DNA from: Tannerella sp.
GTDB taxonomy: Bacteria; Bacteroidota; Bacteroidia; Bacteroidales; Tannerellaceae
Length of the DNA: 64,000 nucleotides
Assembly: GCA_031276675.1 (NCBI GenBank)
Contig: JAISMO010000163.1
Coordinates: 1 to 64,000 of the forward strand
Direction of reading: 5' to 3'
Position numbers and translations under genes: made by a program. The notes beneath the pieces were generated by a model that was given only the letters and a program-made list of their open reading frames with translations, made no database searches and was not told the origin of the DNA. Below are positions 16,349 through 61,660 of this stretch, piece after piece. Position 1 is the stretch's first letter; every line of letters begins with the position of its first letter.

Positions 16349-16645
16349 TTTTATATTTTCCGATTACTCGGAAATATTTTTCTGTTATCCGGAAATATTT
16401 TTGAATAATGCAGAAAGATTTCTACATAATATGGAAATATTTTCGAGTGATGCGGAAATATTTTTTGACAATCCGAAAATATTTCTGAGTAGTGTAGAAA
16501 TATTTCTGAGTAGCATAGAAATATTTTCGTGTAATTTGAAAATATTTCCGGGCAGTGAGAAAATATTTTTTTGTAACGTGAAACAGTTTCTGAATAAGGT
16601 ATATACATTTTCGGATAATAAAAAAATGATTCCGTAAAACGAAAA
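16349..16645. repeat. Palindromic tandem array A, period 21 bp, ~13-14 units, core gAAATATTTc
   Basis: Consecutive 21-mers: ggaaatatttttctgttatcc, ggaaatatttttgaataatgc, agaaagatttctacataatat, ggaaatattttcgagtgatgc, etc. Confidence 0.9.
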
Positions 16646-25177: not shown

Positions 25178-25230
25178 AGCAGCTGAACGGCCGCTGCGGC
25201 TGTTTGGCCGTTCGGATGCTGTTGCCCGTT

Positions 25231-25337
25231 TATGCTGCGACGCAGCATAGCGTTATGCTGTGACACGGCATAGCCTTATGCTGCGACACGGCATAGCCTT
25301 ATGCTGTGACACAGCATAACGTTATGCTGTGATGCAG
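25231..25337. repeat. Palindromic tandem array B, period 23 bp, 4.5 units, core TATGCTGYGACRCRGCATA
   Basis: Units tatgctgcgacgcagcatagcgt / tatgctgtgacacggcatagcct / tatgctgcgacacggcatagcct / tatgctgtgacacagcataacgt / tatgctgtgatgcag. Confidence 0.92.
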
Positions 25338-28329: not shown

Positions 28330-28745
28330 GGCATCATGTCAATACTCATATGCGGCCTTTCATTATTGTAGAAGTCTGCCGCCACTGTTACAGCGGCTTT
28401 TACTTCATCCATGCCCGGAAGACAATTCCTTTCAGCAGTTCATTCTTCATCGTGCCGTTGATGCGCTCCGCCTGTGCCGGGATTCTGCAAGCGGACAGCC
28501 TCCGCCTGCAGGGCTTTCACGTCATGGCCCCGGATAGCGCCGCCGGGCGCCGAACCTGTTTGCTGTTTTTTCATCGGAACGGTTTTTCCCGCGTTTTCCG
28601 CCGCAAAGACAGCTATCCATCCTGACACCGCAGAATGCCCTGCCGGTATAATTCGGGATATGCGATCTTCTCCGCAGCCATACTCACAATGTAATCTGAT
28701 GACTTCTTCAAAATACAGTCGCTGTTTCTCTGTTCGCAATTTCAT
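28330..28745 (-). pseudogene. IS3-family transposase remnant (OrfA N-terminus joined to OrfB C-terminus)
   Basis: OrfA-like MKLRTEKQRLYFEEVIRLHCEYGCGEDRISRIIPAGHSAVSGWI; shifted frames encode AERINGTMKNELLKG and DEVKAAVTVAADFYNNERPHMSIDMM. Confidence 0.75.
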
Positions 28746-28853
28746 CGTTAACTCTTTGGGATGTCAACTTTTTCTGGCGAAAGACAGTTTTGATATATCC
28801 GTAAAAAGTTGTTCTTTTGTAGCCTGCAAAAAAAACTGTAAAGGAAAAGACTA

Positions 28854-33874: not shown

Positions 33875-33916
33875 TCCCCATGTCATCCGTTTTTGCTTCA
33901 CTTGATGACATGGGGA
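33875..33916. other. Hairpin with 13-bp perfect stem
   Basis: TCCCCATGTCATC...GATGACATGGGGA, 16-nt loop. Confidence 0.7.
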
Positions 33917-33977
33917 TACCCACCGTCGAATCAAGCAGATGTTGCAGCATGGACCGGGCGAACATGGACCATAGGGG

Positions 33978-34005
33978 CCACCCTGAAGCTACAGTTTCAG
34001 GGTGG
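33978..34005. other. Hairpin with 10-bp perfect stem
   Basis: CCACCCTGAA-gctacagt-TTCAGGGTGG. Confidence 0.65.
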
Positions 34006-34262
34006 TTGAAGCAAACTTAAGGTTCATAAAGTGTCCTCCCTGCGGGAGGGTCTGTTACACGCCACTCCTTTCGCATCCCTAAAACGGAACGGGCCGAACG
34101 GTATGGCAAAATTCTTCACCAGACGTTTTTCGATGAAGAAGAATATCATTACTTTTGCACCGCAATTTAATATGGCATAATGTGAAGAAAATAACTTTTT
34201 TGTTGCGCATTAGCGCATATCCTTACGGAGGAAATGATCCCGAAAGCCTTGTGGAAATCGCC

Positions 34263-34451
34263 GATTCCCCATGGGAAATTACCGATTCCCCATGGGGAAT
34301 TGTCGATTCCTCATGGGGAATTGCCGATTCCTCAACGGGAATTGTCGATTCCCCAACGGGAATTGTTGATTCCCCATGGGGAATTGTTGATTCCCCATGG
34401 GGAATTATCGGTTTCCCAACGGGAATTGCCGGTTCCCCGGTGGAAATTAGC
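34263..34451. repeat. Palindromic tandem array C, period 21 bp, 9 units, core ATTCCCCATGGGGAAT
   Basis: Units gattccccatgggaaattacc, gattccccatggggaattgtc, gattcctcatggggaattgcc, gattcctcaacgggaattgtc, etc. Confidence 0.93.
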
Positions 34452-41370: not shown

Positions 41371-41431
41371 AGGTCTGCCATACCGTTTCGGCACGCTTCC
41401 ATAAAGTACACTGAATATTTGACGCCCGCCG

Positions 41432-41682
41432 TTCGTAACGCTACGAAGAAACGCTTCGTGACGCTGTTACGCGACACGTCCTAAAACGCTGTTACGACGT
41501 AGAATAACACTGTTCTACGACATAGAATAACGCTGTTATACGGCGTAGAATAACACTGTTCTACGGCATAGAATAACGCTGTTCTATGGCGTAGAATAAC
41601 GCTGTTCTATGGCGTAGAATAACGCTGTTCTACGACGTAGAATAACGCTGTTCTACGGCGTAGAATAACGCTGTTACTTGAC
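41432..41682. repeat. Palindromic tandem array D, period 23 bp, 8 clear plus ~2-3 degenerate units, core GTAGAATAACGCTGTTCTAC
   Basis: gtagaataacactgttctacgac / atagaataacgctgttatacggc / gtagaataacactgttctacggc / atagaataacgctgttctatggc, etc. Confidence 0.93.
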
Positions 41683-41888
41683 AGGTAATAATGGTTTTCC
41701 TGTATCTTCCTGATGCAGAGTGGGGAAGCGTCTCTGTTCAACGCCTGAGAAAAGACAGGCGCAACCGTGAAGGAACACAGGTTTTTCGTTTGTATGGAAA
41801 AAATGCCGGGCTAACTTTATTATGCGGAGAACATGCGATTAATCCCTATCGAGATTACAGTACGGGAGTTCCGAAACTCCGAATCCGT

Positions 41889-52493: not shown

Positions 52494-52872
52494 CTTTCAA
52501 TCAATCACATTAACCGGAGGCACTGTTTCCTCACGACGGGGCAAAGTAAACACTTTTTTTTGGATTTGCTAAATTTTTCACTGGAAAAAAATACGGATTT
52601 CCGGTTTTTTAAAAAAAACAGGTGATTATCAGGAAGATCGGATCGTCTAAAAAAGGGGATATGCAGGGCGGGTTTCCGTAAAGAAGCAAAAACCGACGGG
52701 CGGCGATGGCGGCAATTGCCGGCATCGTCCTGCTTCCTGCATCATGCCGTGCATCCGGCTGTCAAACCTTAGCCGGCGGAGGCTGTCGCATGTCCCTTTT
52801 CAACCGCATTTGCCGCTGAAACAGGTTTCCGGCAAGCGTCAAAATGGCACAGCAATATAAATCGAAAAAATC

Positions 52873-52998
52873 CGGGTGGTTACTCTGAAAATTCGGGTAA
52901 TTACCCGGAAATTCGGAGTAATTACCCGGAAACCTGGAGTAATTACCCGGAAACTTCGGGTAGTTACTCGAAAATTTGGAGTAATTACTCCGAAAGGG
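52873..52998. repeat. Palindromic tandem array E, period 21 bp, 6 units, cores CGGGTAATTACCCG and GGAGTAATTACTCC
   Basis: cgggtggttactctgaaaatt / cgggtaattacccggaaattc / ggagtaattacccggaaacct / ggagtaattacccggaaactt / cgggtagttactcgaaaattt / ggagtaattactccgaaaggg. Confidence 0.92.
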
Positions 52999-57506: not shown

Positions 57507-59990
57507 TTAATGTCGGTTTTTCTTTAACAGCAGGTCCAGCGTATATTCGTCCGGGATCAGCACCTGCCGTGCCTTGCTGCCGTCGGCCGGGCCAACGATG
57601 CCGGCGCGTTCCTGCTGATCCATCAGGCGTCCGGCCCGGTTGTATCCGATGGAAAACTTGCGCTGAAGCATTGAGGTGGAAGCCTGCTGCTGAATGACGA
57701 TCAGGCGCGCCGCCTCTTCAAACAGCGGGTCGCGACCGGAGGCGTCGATTTCGTCCGCCTTCCGGTCGTCGCCTCCCGCGCCGTTTTCCGTCACGTATTC
57801 CGGCAGTTCGTAGGCGCTTATGTATCCCGGCTGCTGGCCGATGAACGACGCGATGTTTTCCACCTCCGGCGTGTCAACAAAGGCGCACTGCACGCGCGTC
57901 ATGTCGATGCTTCCGCCGGAGAAGAGCAGGTCGCCGCGCCCGATCAGTTTGTTGGCGCCCGGCTGGTCGAGAATCGTACGCGAATCGACCATCTGGGATA
58001 CGCGGAAGGCGATGCGGGTGGGGAAGTTGGCCTTGATGTTTCCGGTGATGATGCTGGTGGAGGGGCGCTGGGTGGCGATGATCATGTGGATGCCGATGGC
58101 TCTGGCCTTTTGCGCGATCCGTGCAATGGGCATTTCGATTTCCTTGCCTGCCTGCATGATCAGGTCGCCAAATTCGTCGATGACCACTACGATGTAGGGC
58201 ATGTAGCGGTGTCCCTTTTCGGGATTCAGGCGGCGGTTGATGAACTTTTCGTTGTATTCCTTAATGTTGCGCACGTGGGCTTTGGTCAGCAGTTCGTAGC
58301 GGTCGTCCATCTCTTTGCAGAGCGAGTTAAGAGTGTTGATCACCCGGGTGCAGTCGGTGATGATGGCTTTTTCTTCGTCCGGCAGTTTGGCCAGGTAGTG
58401 ACGTTCGATTTTGCTGTAGATACTGAATTCGACCATCTTGGGGTCGATGAGCACCAGTTTCATTTCCGTCGGATGCTTCTTGTAGAGCAGCGAGGTAATG
58501 ATGGCGTTCAGGCCTACCGACTTGCCCTGTCCCGTAGCGCCGGCCATCAGCAGGTGAGGCGCCTTGCAGAGGTCGAACATGAAAACGTCGTTCGTAATGG
58601 TGCGTCCCAGCGCGACGGGCAGGTCGAATTTGCTTTCGTTGAACTTACGCGAGGCCAGCAGCGGATGCATGGATACAATCTGCGCCTCCCTGTTGGGCAC
58701 TTCGATTCCGATGGTGCCCTTGCCGGGTATGGGGGCAATGATGCGAATCCCCAGGGCCGAAAGCCGCAGGGCTATATCGTCTTCCAGATTTCTGATTTTC
58801 CGGATGGGTACCCCGACGGCCGGCACGACTTCATAGAGCGTCAGGGTCGGCCCCACGGTTGCGTTGATGGATACGATGTGGATGCCAAATTCTTCCAGCG
58901 TCTGCTTGATGCGTTTCTTGTTTTCGTTCTGCTCGTCGGTATTGAAGACCTGCGTCTGCTGGTCATATATTTTCAGCAGTTCCAGTTTCGGGAAATGATA
59001 GTTTGACAGTTCCAGACGCGGATTGTATTCGCCCAGCGACGATTCGTCATACGGATCGCCGTCGTCGTCTGCCGGCGAGGGATGCGGGTGGAGGAACGGG
59101 CGGGCGTCGCCGGGCGGCTCCTCATACGGTTCTCCGTCGCCGGCAGGTACGGTGACGGCAAACAGAATCCCGTCGTCCGCAGCGGCCGCGGCGCCGGTCG
59201 ATCCTGCCGCCCGCGCCGGCGGAGTTCCTTTGATTATTTCTTCCTCTTCCTCTTCTTCTTCCTCCTCCCCGTCGTCGTCTTCTTCTTCCGTTTCCTCCGT
59301 TTCCGGTTCGGTGAATCTGCGTGTTTTCGGCTGCGGCCGGTCCCTCCGCCCGCGTTCAAGCCAAACCAGCGAAAAGAGGTTCTGCAGGGCGGGGATGACT
59401 TTCGCGCTCAGACTGATGGCGATGATCAGCAAACCGACGGCTAACAGGAGAACCACACCCGGTTTGCCGATGTTCCTGACCAGCATTTCCGAGAGATAAA
59501 ATCCCTGCCGCCCGCCCAGGAACAGGAAGGAGTCTTCATAATTCTTCATAAAGACAAAGGACAGAAACAGGGAACTCCACAGCAGCATGGCCGTGGAGAG
59601 CAGGAAACGCCTGAGCAGGGAAATCCGGCCGATATTCATCCACTTCACCCCCAGCGAACCCAGGTAAAACAGCATGAAAAAGGAGGGGATGCCGAACCAG
59701 CGATTCATCAGCAGATCGGCTATCCAGGCGCCGCGGATGCCGCCCCAGTTACTTACCGGCCGGCTGCCGGTGAGCAACTCCCGGATCGGGATGTTTTCTA
59801 TCGCGCTCTGGTCGGCGCCGCCCGTAAAGAAAAACGACAGTGATACAATCCCCATGTAGATGACCAGTGCACAGAGAATCAAACCTGTTAAAAAACGCAC
59901 GCGCTCATTCGTAAAGAACGGATCTATCCATTCCCGCAGGGTTCCCATACCCTTTCCGGCACGTTTCTTTTTCGTTGATTTCTTGACCAT
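57507..59990 (-). CDS. ftsK: DNA translocase FtsK/SpoIIIE
   Basis: MAGATGQGKSVGLNAIITSLL; IVVVIDEFGDLIM; IIATQRPSTSIITG; start MVKKSTKKK at 59990. Confidence 0.94.
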   Translation of the reverse strand: MVKKSTKKKRAGKGMGTLREWIDPFFTNERVRFLTGLILCALVIYMGIVSLSFFFTGGADQSAIENIPIRELLTGSRPVSNWGGIRGAWIADLLMNRWFGIPSFFMLFYLGSLGVKWMNIGRISLLRRFLLSTAMLLWSSLFLSFVFMKNYEDSFLFLGGRQGFYLSEMLVRNIGKPGVVLLLAVGLLIIAISLSAKVIPALQNLFSLVWLERGRRDRPQPKTRRFTEPETEETEEEDDDGEEEEEEEEEEIIKGTPPARAAGSTGAAAAADDGILFAVTVPAGDGEPYEEPPGDARPFLHPHPSPADDDGDPYDESSLGEYNPRLELSNYHFPKLELLKIYDQQTQVFNTDEQNENKKRIKQTLEEFGIHIVSINATVGPTLTLYEVVPAVGVPIRKIRNLEDDIALRLSALGIRIIAPIPGKGTIGIEVPNREAQIVSMHPLLASRKFNESKFDLPVALGRTITNDVFMFDLCKAPHLLMAGATGQGKSVGLNAIITSLLYKKHPTEMKLVLIDPKMVEFSIYSKIERHYLAKLPDEEKAIITDCTRVINTLNSLCKEMDDRYELLTKAHVRNIKEYNEKFINRRLNPEKGHRYMPYIVVVIDEFGDLIMQAGKEIEMPIARIAQKARAIGIHMIIATQRPSTSIITGNIKANFPTRIAFRVSQMVDSRTILDQPGANKLIGRGDLLFSGGSIDMTRVQCAFVDTPEVENIASFIGQQPGYISAYELPEYVTENGAGGDDRKADEIDASGRDPLFEEAARLIVIQQQASTSMLQRKFSIGYNRAGRLMDQQERAGIVGPADGSKARQVLIPDEYTLDLLLKKNRH

Positions 59991-60021: not shown

Positions 60022-60052
60022 CAAAGGTAAAGATTATAATCCGATAAATCAA
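60022..60052 (-). promoter_or_regulatory. Putative Bacteroidetes-type promoter of ftsK
   Basis: Minus strand TTG-N20-TACCTTTG. Confidence 0.5.
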
Positions 60053-60257: not shown

Positions 60258-60386
60258 CCTGTGCGTCAGCGCCGCACTAACCTGTGCGTTAGTACCACAC
60301 TAACCCATGCGTTAGTACCGCTCTTACCTGTGCGTAAGAACCACTCTTACCTATGCGTAAGAGCCGCTCTTACCCATGCGTAAGAA
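60258..60386. repeat. Palindromic tandem array F, period 23 bp, ~6 units, arms ACTAAC/GTTAGT switching to TCTTAC/GTAAGA
   Basis: cctgtgcgtcagcgccgcactaa / cctgtgcgttagtaccacactaa / cccatgcgttagtaccgctctta / cctgtgcgtaagaaccactctta / cctatgcgtaagagccgctctta / cccatgcgtaagaa. Confidence 0.92.
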
Positions 60387-60598
60387 AACAGGAGCACCCC
60401 CGCGCAGATGAAGGTATCGGCGCCGGGATTCGCGCCGGCCCCGTCCGCAAGGTTACAGCCCGCAGGCGACGGAAATTCCGGGAAAAACGCCGCAGGTATA
60501 TCCATAATTGACTATTTTTGCAGCGCACCGCCTGATTCCCGGATACGGCCGGAATCGGGATTGCAGATTTCACCGAAACATTTAATTGGAAACGCTAT

Positions 60599-61660
60599 AT
60601 GTCGGAAAAAGTTTTTTATGGAAATTCGCTGGAGGATTGGGGCATCTCCCTGCTGATTATTGTCGGAGGCCTTCTCCTGAACCAGCTCCTTCTGCTGATC
60701 AGCCGGATGGTTGTTCGGCCGCTCACGGGAAAGAGTAAAACACGCTATGATGATATTTTCTTCGAGGCGCTGAAGAAACCGGTGCTCTCCGGAGTGATGC
60801 TGGCGGCCATACGGGTGGCCTGCGAACGGCTGGCGCCGGACGCAGGGGCGCATGACTTCATCGTCCGTTCCTTCCATATCCTGATGATACTGAACGTGAC
60901 GTGGTTCGTGGCGCGTCTGGCCGTGGCCTCCGTCGAAGAATCCCTTTTCCGTGAAAAGGGGACGCGAAAAAAGGATGCGCGCCTCAACCGGCATCTGTTT
61001 CCCGTTGTCAAGCGCGGTCTGCTGGCGCTTGTCTGGCTGACGGGCGGCGTGACCGCGCTCGGCGAGGCCGGCGTCGAGGCCGGGTCGCTCTGGGGAACGC
61101 TGGGTATTGGAGGACTCGCCTTTGCGCTGGCCTCGCAGGAGTCGGTCAAGAACATGCTGGGAGGCATTACGATCTTCGTAGACCGGCCGTTTCGCCTCGG
61201 CGACATCATCCGCTTCGACTCGATCGAGGGTACGGTGGAAGACATCGGCTTTCGAAGCACGCGCGTCCGGACGTATGACCGGCGCCTGGTCATCATCCCG
61301 AACTGCAAGCTGACGGACGTGTCGGTGACCAACATCACGTCGGAACCGGAGCGCCGGGTCGTGGTCACGCTGGGACTGACCTACGACACGCGCTACGAAC
61401 AGATGAAATACGCCCTGGCGCTGCTGAAACGCATCCCCCAGGCCATTCCCGAAGTGAACGGGCAGGAGCTGACGGCTACCTTCTCGGACTACGGCGATTC
61501 GGCGCTGCTTGTTACCTTTATTTATTTTATCCGGAAACCGGCCGATATCCGCGAAACGGTTTCAAAGGTGAACTTCGAAATCCTCCGCACATTCAACGAA
61601 GCGGGACTGAACTTCGCCTTCCCGACGCAAACGGTCTATCTGGAAGGAAGGAAGGCGTAA
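60599..61660 (+). CDS. MscS-family mechanosensitive ion channel
   Basis: LGIGGLAFALASQESVKNMLGGITIFVDRPFRLGDIIRFDSIEGTVEDIGFRSTRVRT. Confidence 0.9.
   Translation: MSEKVFYGNSLEDWGISLLIIVGGLLLNQLLLLISRMVVRPLTGKSKTRYDDIFFEALKKPVLSGVMLAAIRVACERLAPDAGAHDFIVRSFHILMILNVTWFVARLAVASVEESLFREKGTRKKDARLNRHLFPVVKRGLLALVWLTGGVTALGEAGVEAGSLWGTLGIGGLAFALASQESVKNMLGGITIFVDRPFRLGDIIRFDSIEGTVEDIGFRSTRVRTYDRRLVIIPNCKLTDVSVTNITSEPERRVVVTLGLTYDTRYEQMKYALALLKRIPQAIPEVNGQELTATFSDYGDSALLVTFIYFIRKPADIRETVSKVNFEILRTFNEAGLNFAFPTQTVYLEGRKA

Follow-up and report, generated by a model that had tools for sequence, protein, structure and literature searches.

Palindromic tandem repeats with jointly differing arms in intergenic regions of a Tannerella genome

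The array between ftsK and mscS

The window analysed here is a stretch of 64,000 nucleotides of contig C110, part of a 2.9-Mb draft genome of Tannerella sp. (G000) that is 94% complete; among named relatives, the nearest are MAGs of Tannerella. Array F (60258-60386, no strand assigned) lies between the ftsK gene on the minus strand, which codes for a DNA translocase (57507-59990; start set at MVKKST, orthologues with 71-82% amino acid identity), and an open reading frame on the plus strand for a putative MscS-type mechanosensitive channel (60599-61660), for which relatives were found. The open reading frame map agrees with the divergent placement given in the original prediction. Bacteroidetes promoters have the -7 box consensus TAnnTTTG. 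A predicted ftsK -7 box TACCTTTG on the minus strand (60022-60029) is situated between array F and ftsK, and a box resembling it is also present upstream of ftsK in the related genome G033. A predicted mscS promoter TTGACTATTTTTGC on the plus strand (60508-60521) is situated between the array and mscS, with its motif recurring upstream of mscS in two contigs of relatives (L004 and L005). Because each predicted promoter lies between array F and its gene, and because the motifs recur in relatives, array F is probably outside both transcripts. In L004 a different gene is found upstream of mscS and no array is present there; the ftsK upstream region carries an unrelated 23-bp palindromic array in the relative G026 and no array in G033.

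Tandem Repeats Finder (TRF) describes array F by a period of 23, about 5.6 copies and 82% match, and its unit combines a 6-bp dyad with a 6-nt loop (CYRTGC). Five complete 23-bp units span 60272-60386, with starts at 60272 (u2, CCGCACTAACCTGTGCGTTAGTA), 60295 (u3), 60318 (u4, CCGCTCTTACCTGTGCGTAAGAA), 60341 (u5) and 60364 (u6), while the left-edge unit (about 60258-60271) is degenerate and belongs to neither of the two arm types. Reading these five units confirms the predicted arm pairing: units 2-3 (60272-60317) combine ACTAAC with GTTAGT (type A), and units 4-6 (60318-60386) combine TCTTAC with GTAAGA (type B). The sole differences between u2 and u4 fall at unit positions 5, 8, 19 and 22, which form two complementary pairs; for four random substitutions the chance of this pattern is about 2.6e-4, a figure worked out post hoc. 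Taken alone, array F presents a single change-over, and shuffled sets of two A and three B units reach perfect concordance in 1/10 of cases. When folded as RNA, the minus strand of the array gives -67.7 kcal/mol (z -9.9) and the plus strand -43.4 (z -5.4), a strand difference among the largest of the arrays.

Array F joins two existing subfamilies

We searched this genome and G026 with a degenerate pattern of the F dyad and recovered, in addition to array F, loci on contigs C69, C22, C34, C116 and C151 of this genome, as well as arrays in G026. All exact matches in these two genomes pair A with A or B with B, with no exact mixed form among them. Both arm types are present at several loci, some of which are single copies (C34, C116 and C157 of G026), and the paralogue at C69 has the same A-to-B boundary as array F. 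Two F-family units are hybrid or broken (C23 unit 1 and C69 unit 2). Across 34 distinct units of the family, 17 stem cells have both members of a pair changed, as against 7.0 in shuffled controls, and this coupling comes mostly from one pair (A-T in 12, T-A in 17). Since each arm type is also found elsewhere in this genome and in G026, array F is best read, on these sequence comparisons, as a mosaic in which one block each of two pre-existing, related subfamilies stand side by side. The suggestion that the arm change was born inside array F is thus not supported. No match to the flanks of array F was found among other elements of the sampled DNA, for which reason it cannot be counted among the demonstrably element-borne arrays.

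Palindromic minisatellites between genes

Arrays of the same general build as F, with short palindromes repeated in tandem between genes, form a large group of minisatellites in this Tannerella lineage, and some of them reside in MITE-like elements. In 800 kb of this genome, tandem periods show sharp peaks at 21 (27 arrays) and 23 bp (28 arrays), with few arrays at 20, 22 and 24. Stems of at least five pairs are found in 80% of the 21/23-bp arrays versus 13.5% of random genomic 23-mers. Under a stricter score, the density of arrays with periods of 19-25 bp in the sampled part of this genome is 8.3 per 100 kb, or by extrapolation roughly two hundred in the whole genome; the corresponding figure for 20 genomes from other families of Bacteroidales is 0.5 per 100 kb. 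The complete genome G003, from the same genus, has periods of mainly 41 and 42 bp, and 300 kb of it (L116-L130) hold 33 such arrays, many with dyads. With the arrays masked before gene calling, they prove to be intergenic, in co-directional, convergent and divergent gaps alike. Without masking, many 21-bp arrays are miscalled as coding sequence, since a period of 21 is divisible by three.

Further unstranded members in the window are array A (16353-16547; 21-bp units with a GAAATATTTC-like dyad), array B (25230-25332; 23-bp units, TATGCTGTGACACAGCATA), array C (34256-34438; 21-bp units, ATTCCCCATGGGGAAT) and array E (52867-52995; 21-bp units with a CGGAGTAATTACCCG-like dyad). The family of array C is also present in G026, G012, G033 and G037 and is thereby common to five species of the genus (L198-L207); its loops are CCATGG, CGTTGG and CAACGG, the last two of which look like mutual reverse complements. 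Outside arrays, single-copy seeds of other units gave no signal (3 versus 2 for shuffled units). Window segments 28572-28791 and about 33916-34012 match several contigs of G026 or G033 and are probably more dispersed repeats, and two short stretches of L081 (14790-15520 and 3546-3622) are repeated across many G033 contigs.

Element alpha and coupling between unit types

Similarity is frequent between the flanks of different arrays, and following it up led to dispersed elements. Several 23-bp arrays sit in such MITE-like elements, including array D (41485-41675; 23-bp units TTCTACG-C-CGTAGAA), which is held by a copy of element alpha on the minus strand (41389-41760). About 20 copies of alpha occur in this genome, and four relatives have none. 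The copies that we read, a subset of these 20 or so on which all comparisons of alpha unit types rest, carry arrays of differing unit types within one frame, and array D itself places three stem types side by side, its own together with units of two others. Between alpha unit types the frame is 87% identical and the arms 41%. Over the five central pairs, both-changed cells number 49 versus 15.9 after shuffling, and the covariation score is 0.874 versus 0.277 for shuffled and 0.358 for the best slid version. Families beta and gamma were recognised by flank similarity between copies, and gamma displays an alpha-like coupling at smaller scale (11 both-changed cells versus 5.9). As the shuffle controls leave the relatedness of units in place, these counts are evidence of coupling and do not give the number of independent events. 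The proposal that dyads are kept while their sequence changes is supported in the F family, alpha and gamma (17 versus 7.0, 49 versus 15.9 and 11 versus 5.9).

In two alpha copies the ends of homology coincide with an imperfect inverted repeat (15/20) seen in L056, and GACAGGAG, a possible target-site duplication, is readable on either side of this one copy. One alpha unit, TTACGAAGCGCCTC-TTCGTAGCG, reads as the first 14 bases of the element's tail and, after them, its own arm in reverse complement. It may represent what a fold-back copy would leave behind; the tail may instead begin with a truncated old unit.

Coupling inside single arrays

A different picture is obtained inside single arrays, with right arms exchanged at random between the units of each array as the control. 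In 41 arrays with 286 units, both-changed and still-paired stem cells number 21 versus 23.4 +- 3.9 in the shuffled sets, and interior units alone give 11 versus 13.0; arms match their own partner no better than they match the arms of neighbouring units. Likewise, no pair-by-pair compensation was found in the array C family, with the G033 copies being out of register in that test. Stem columns are about half as variable as those of loop and spacer (0.086 versus 0.163), a difference absent from permuted-column controls. Hence the stems are constrained or favoured, yet single changes in them go uncompensated on the time scale of a single array. Since compensation within arrays does not exceed the chance level, the dyad of a unit type appears to be laid down at its founding or amplification and not to be mended one base at a time.

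The original prediction had named independent arm changes as the observation that would speak against it, and had offered selection on the dyad or a copying mechanism that preserves dyads as the explanation. Arms do change independently within arrays; between related unit types they do not. Maintenance of the dyad is accordingly the part of that explanation that stands, and neither an origin inside array F nor a selective or repair process acting pair by pair within arrays is upheld.

Turnover relative to G026

Of the array-adjacent gene ends of this genome, 17 were located in G026, and 16 of them have G026 DNA reaching far enough for comparison. The same array is absent from all 16; at three of these ends, and at the ftsK locus, G026 has an unrelated array. 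The alignment to G026 never resumes past an array, with about 10 loci having far-side DNA in both genomes. In the window, synteny with G026 is kept in 6 of 9 array-free gaps and in 0 of 5 array-bearing gaps. Arrays also coincide with the ends of synteny blocks in L181-L197 and in the window gaps, where contig ends confound the comparison. Given that gene order is broadly broken and that contig ends are a confounding factor, a link between arrays and synteny breakpoints is only suggestive.

Relationship to known repeats

The closest known kind of element is the BrickBuilt MITE of Porphyromonas gingivalis (PMC4596501), a member of the same bacterial order, whose build, a 23-nt minisatellite inside a MITE, is already known. 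It shares with the present arrays intergenic 23-nt tandem repeats that are imperfect, have predicted stem-loops and lie in an element equipped with a leader and a tail, and its source also reports 22- and 41-nt repeats (PMC4596501). Spacerless intergenic tandem repeats of 23 nt are one of the two main period classes here, and a shared leader and tail are found in alpha and, by flank similarity, in beta and gamma, but not in array F in the sampled DNA. The IS5-like terminal inverted repeat of BrickBuilt, GAGACCTTTGCA, has 3 matches in the neighbourhood of 41 arrays when up to 2 mismatches are allowed, roughly as many as expected from background, and the imperfect 15/20 end repeat of alpha in L056 differs from it. 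Unlike BrickBuilt, the Tannerella arrays comprise many unit families, paired but different arms within one element family, and periods that include 21 and 42.

REP/BIME elements with their RAYT transposase (PMC2817692) are likewise short, dispersed, species-specific intergenic palindromes in arrays; the present arrays differ from them in the strict 21/23-bp periods, in their dozens of families, and in that we found neither a RAYT nor clear enrichment of GTAG or CGTC. Bacterial satellites (PMC6749651) are comparable as tandem non-coding repeats of prokaryotes, but according to that survey most bacteria contain few satellites, and transposed satellite families are rare, in contrast to the density seen here (approximately 8 per 100 kb for arrays of 19-25 bp). 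Our literature search, mostly outside subscription journals, retrieved no case of paired arm replacement in one element family and none of such scale or set of periods.

Origin of the paired arms

Several processes might produce units whose arms differ jointly. Selection might maintain a DNA hairpin, cruciform or dyad, with one pair exchanged at a time via tolerated mismatches, so that coupling becomes visible only over longer times. The lower variability of stems relative to loops fits such selection, as do compensated single-pair steps (A-T replaced by G-C in the leader unit of alpha) and the stems of the array C family that differ between species (C-G to T-A in G033). We nevertheless regard it as a somewhat unlikely account, given that compensated cells are not in excess within arrays, that whole arrays persist despite a broken pair (pair 2 of C38 in G026), and that alpha types differ from each other in five neighbouring pairs simultaneously. 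The dyad symmetry, the periods of 21, 23 and 41-42 bp, and the conservation of stems without compensation inside arrays would also suit half-sites for dimeric DNA-binding proteins, placed about two helical turns apart as in iterons or operators, with arms changing along with a putative cognate protein; array F moreover lies between two divergent predicted promoters. The presence of dozens of mutually unrelated units in a single genome, the failure to see the same array at any gene end traced in G026, and the non-regulatory nature of the neighbours ftsK and mscS make such sites improbable, though they and gradual compensation under selection are still serious competitors of the account preferred below.

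The arrays could alternatively act as RNA hairpins, namely predicted terminators, stabilisers or small RNAs, in line with array F folding better than its shuffles, at z -5.4 for the plus and -9.9 for the minus strand, and with the known promoter activity of BrickBuilt (PMC4596501). For array F itself this is disfavoured because it is upstream of both predicted promoters and because there is no wobble bias: on the sense strand G-U does not exceed A-C (52 versus 61, and 11 versus 14). Sense and antisense folding energies are equal across 20 co-directional arrays, the window has no Rfam match, and arrays occur in gaps of every orientation, so we consider an RNA role very unlikely. Mobilisation by a RAYT transposase, as in REP/BIME-type elements, would account for dispersed intergenic palindromes in tandem arrays; this 94% complete genome has no Y1 transposase (PF01797), and the palindrome-foot tags GTAG and CGTC occur in 5/41 and 9/41 units versus 5.6 and 6.5 in shuffled ones, leaving such a mechanism with hardly any likelihood.

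The account that we tentatively prefer, as one with a little under an even chance of being correct, is that unit types are founded by joint rewriting of both arms. Each unit would be a short dyad set within a constant frame of loop and spacer, and a new type would arise when both arms are rewritten together. The likeliest route would be fold-back template switching in the course of DNA replication, in which one arm serves as the template for its complementary partner. Slippage or unequal exchange would then multiply the new unit, with amplification favouring units with an intact dyad, and between founding steps the arms would mutate independently. Template switching that creates or repairs stems has been described (PMC8794818), and it predicts multi-base compensatory changes and perfect stems founded in one event; it was described for RNA genes, and the present proposal extends it to DNA palindromes repeated in tandem and borne by elements. 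Against joint founding, no such event has been observed between closely related strains, certain steps from one type to another involve just one pair and would also follow from gradual compensation (L105 u1 versus L112 u1), and slippage alone does not explain the sharp periods of 21, 23 and 41-42 bp. More speculatively, and with perhaps a modest chance of being right, there might exist a mobile-element family with a 23-bp tandem unit in which the stem is an exchangeable cassette in a constant frame, its arms being co-rewritten by replication-coupled copying to yield many palindromic satellites per genome.

Implications

How the two sides of a stem come to change jointly is a long-standing question in the evolution of RNA and DNA. 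Because many units in one Tannerella genome share frame and flanks and differ in their paired arms, selection on pairing and copying in one step could be told apart in this system with a series of strains. The observations also suggest that palindromic satellites, some of them borne by elements, make up a large share of the intergenic DNA in the genus.
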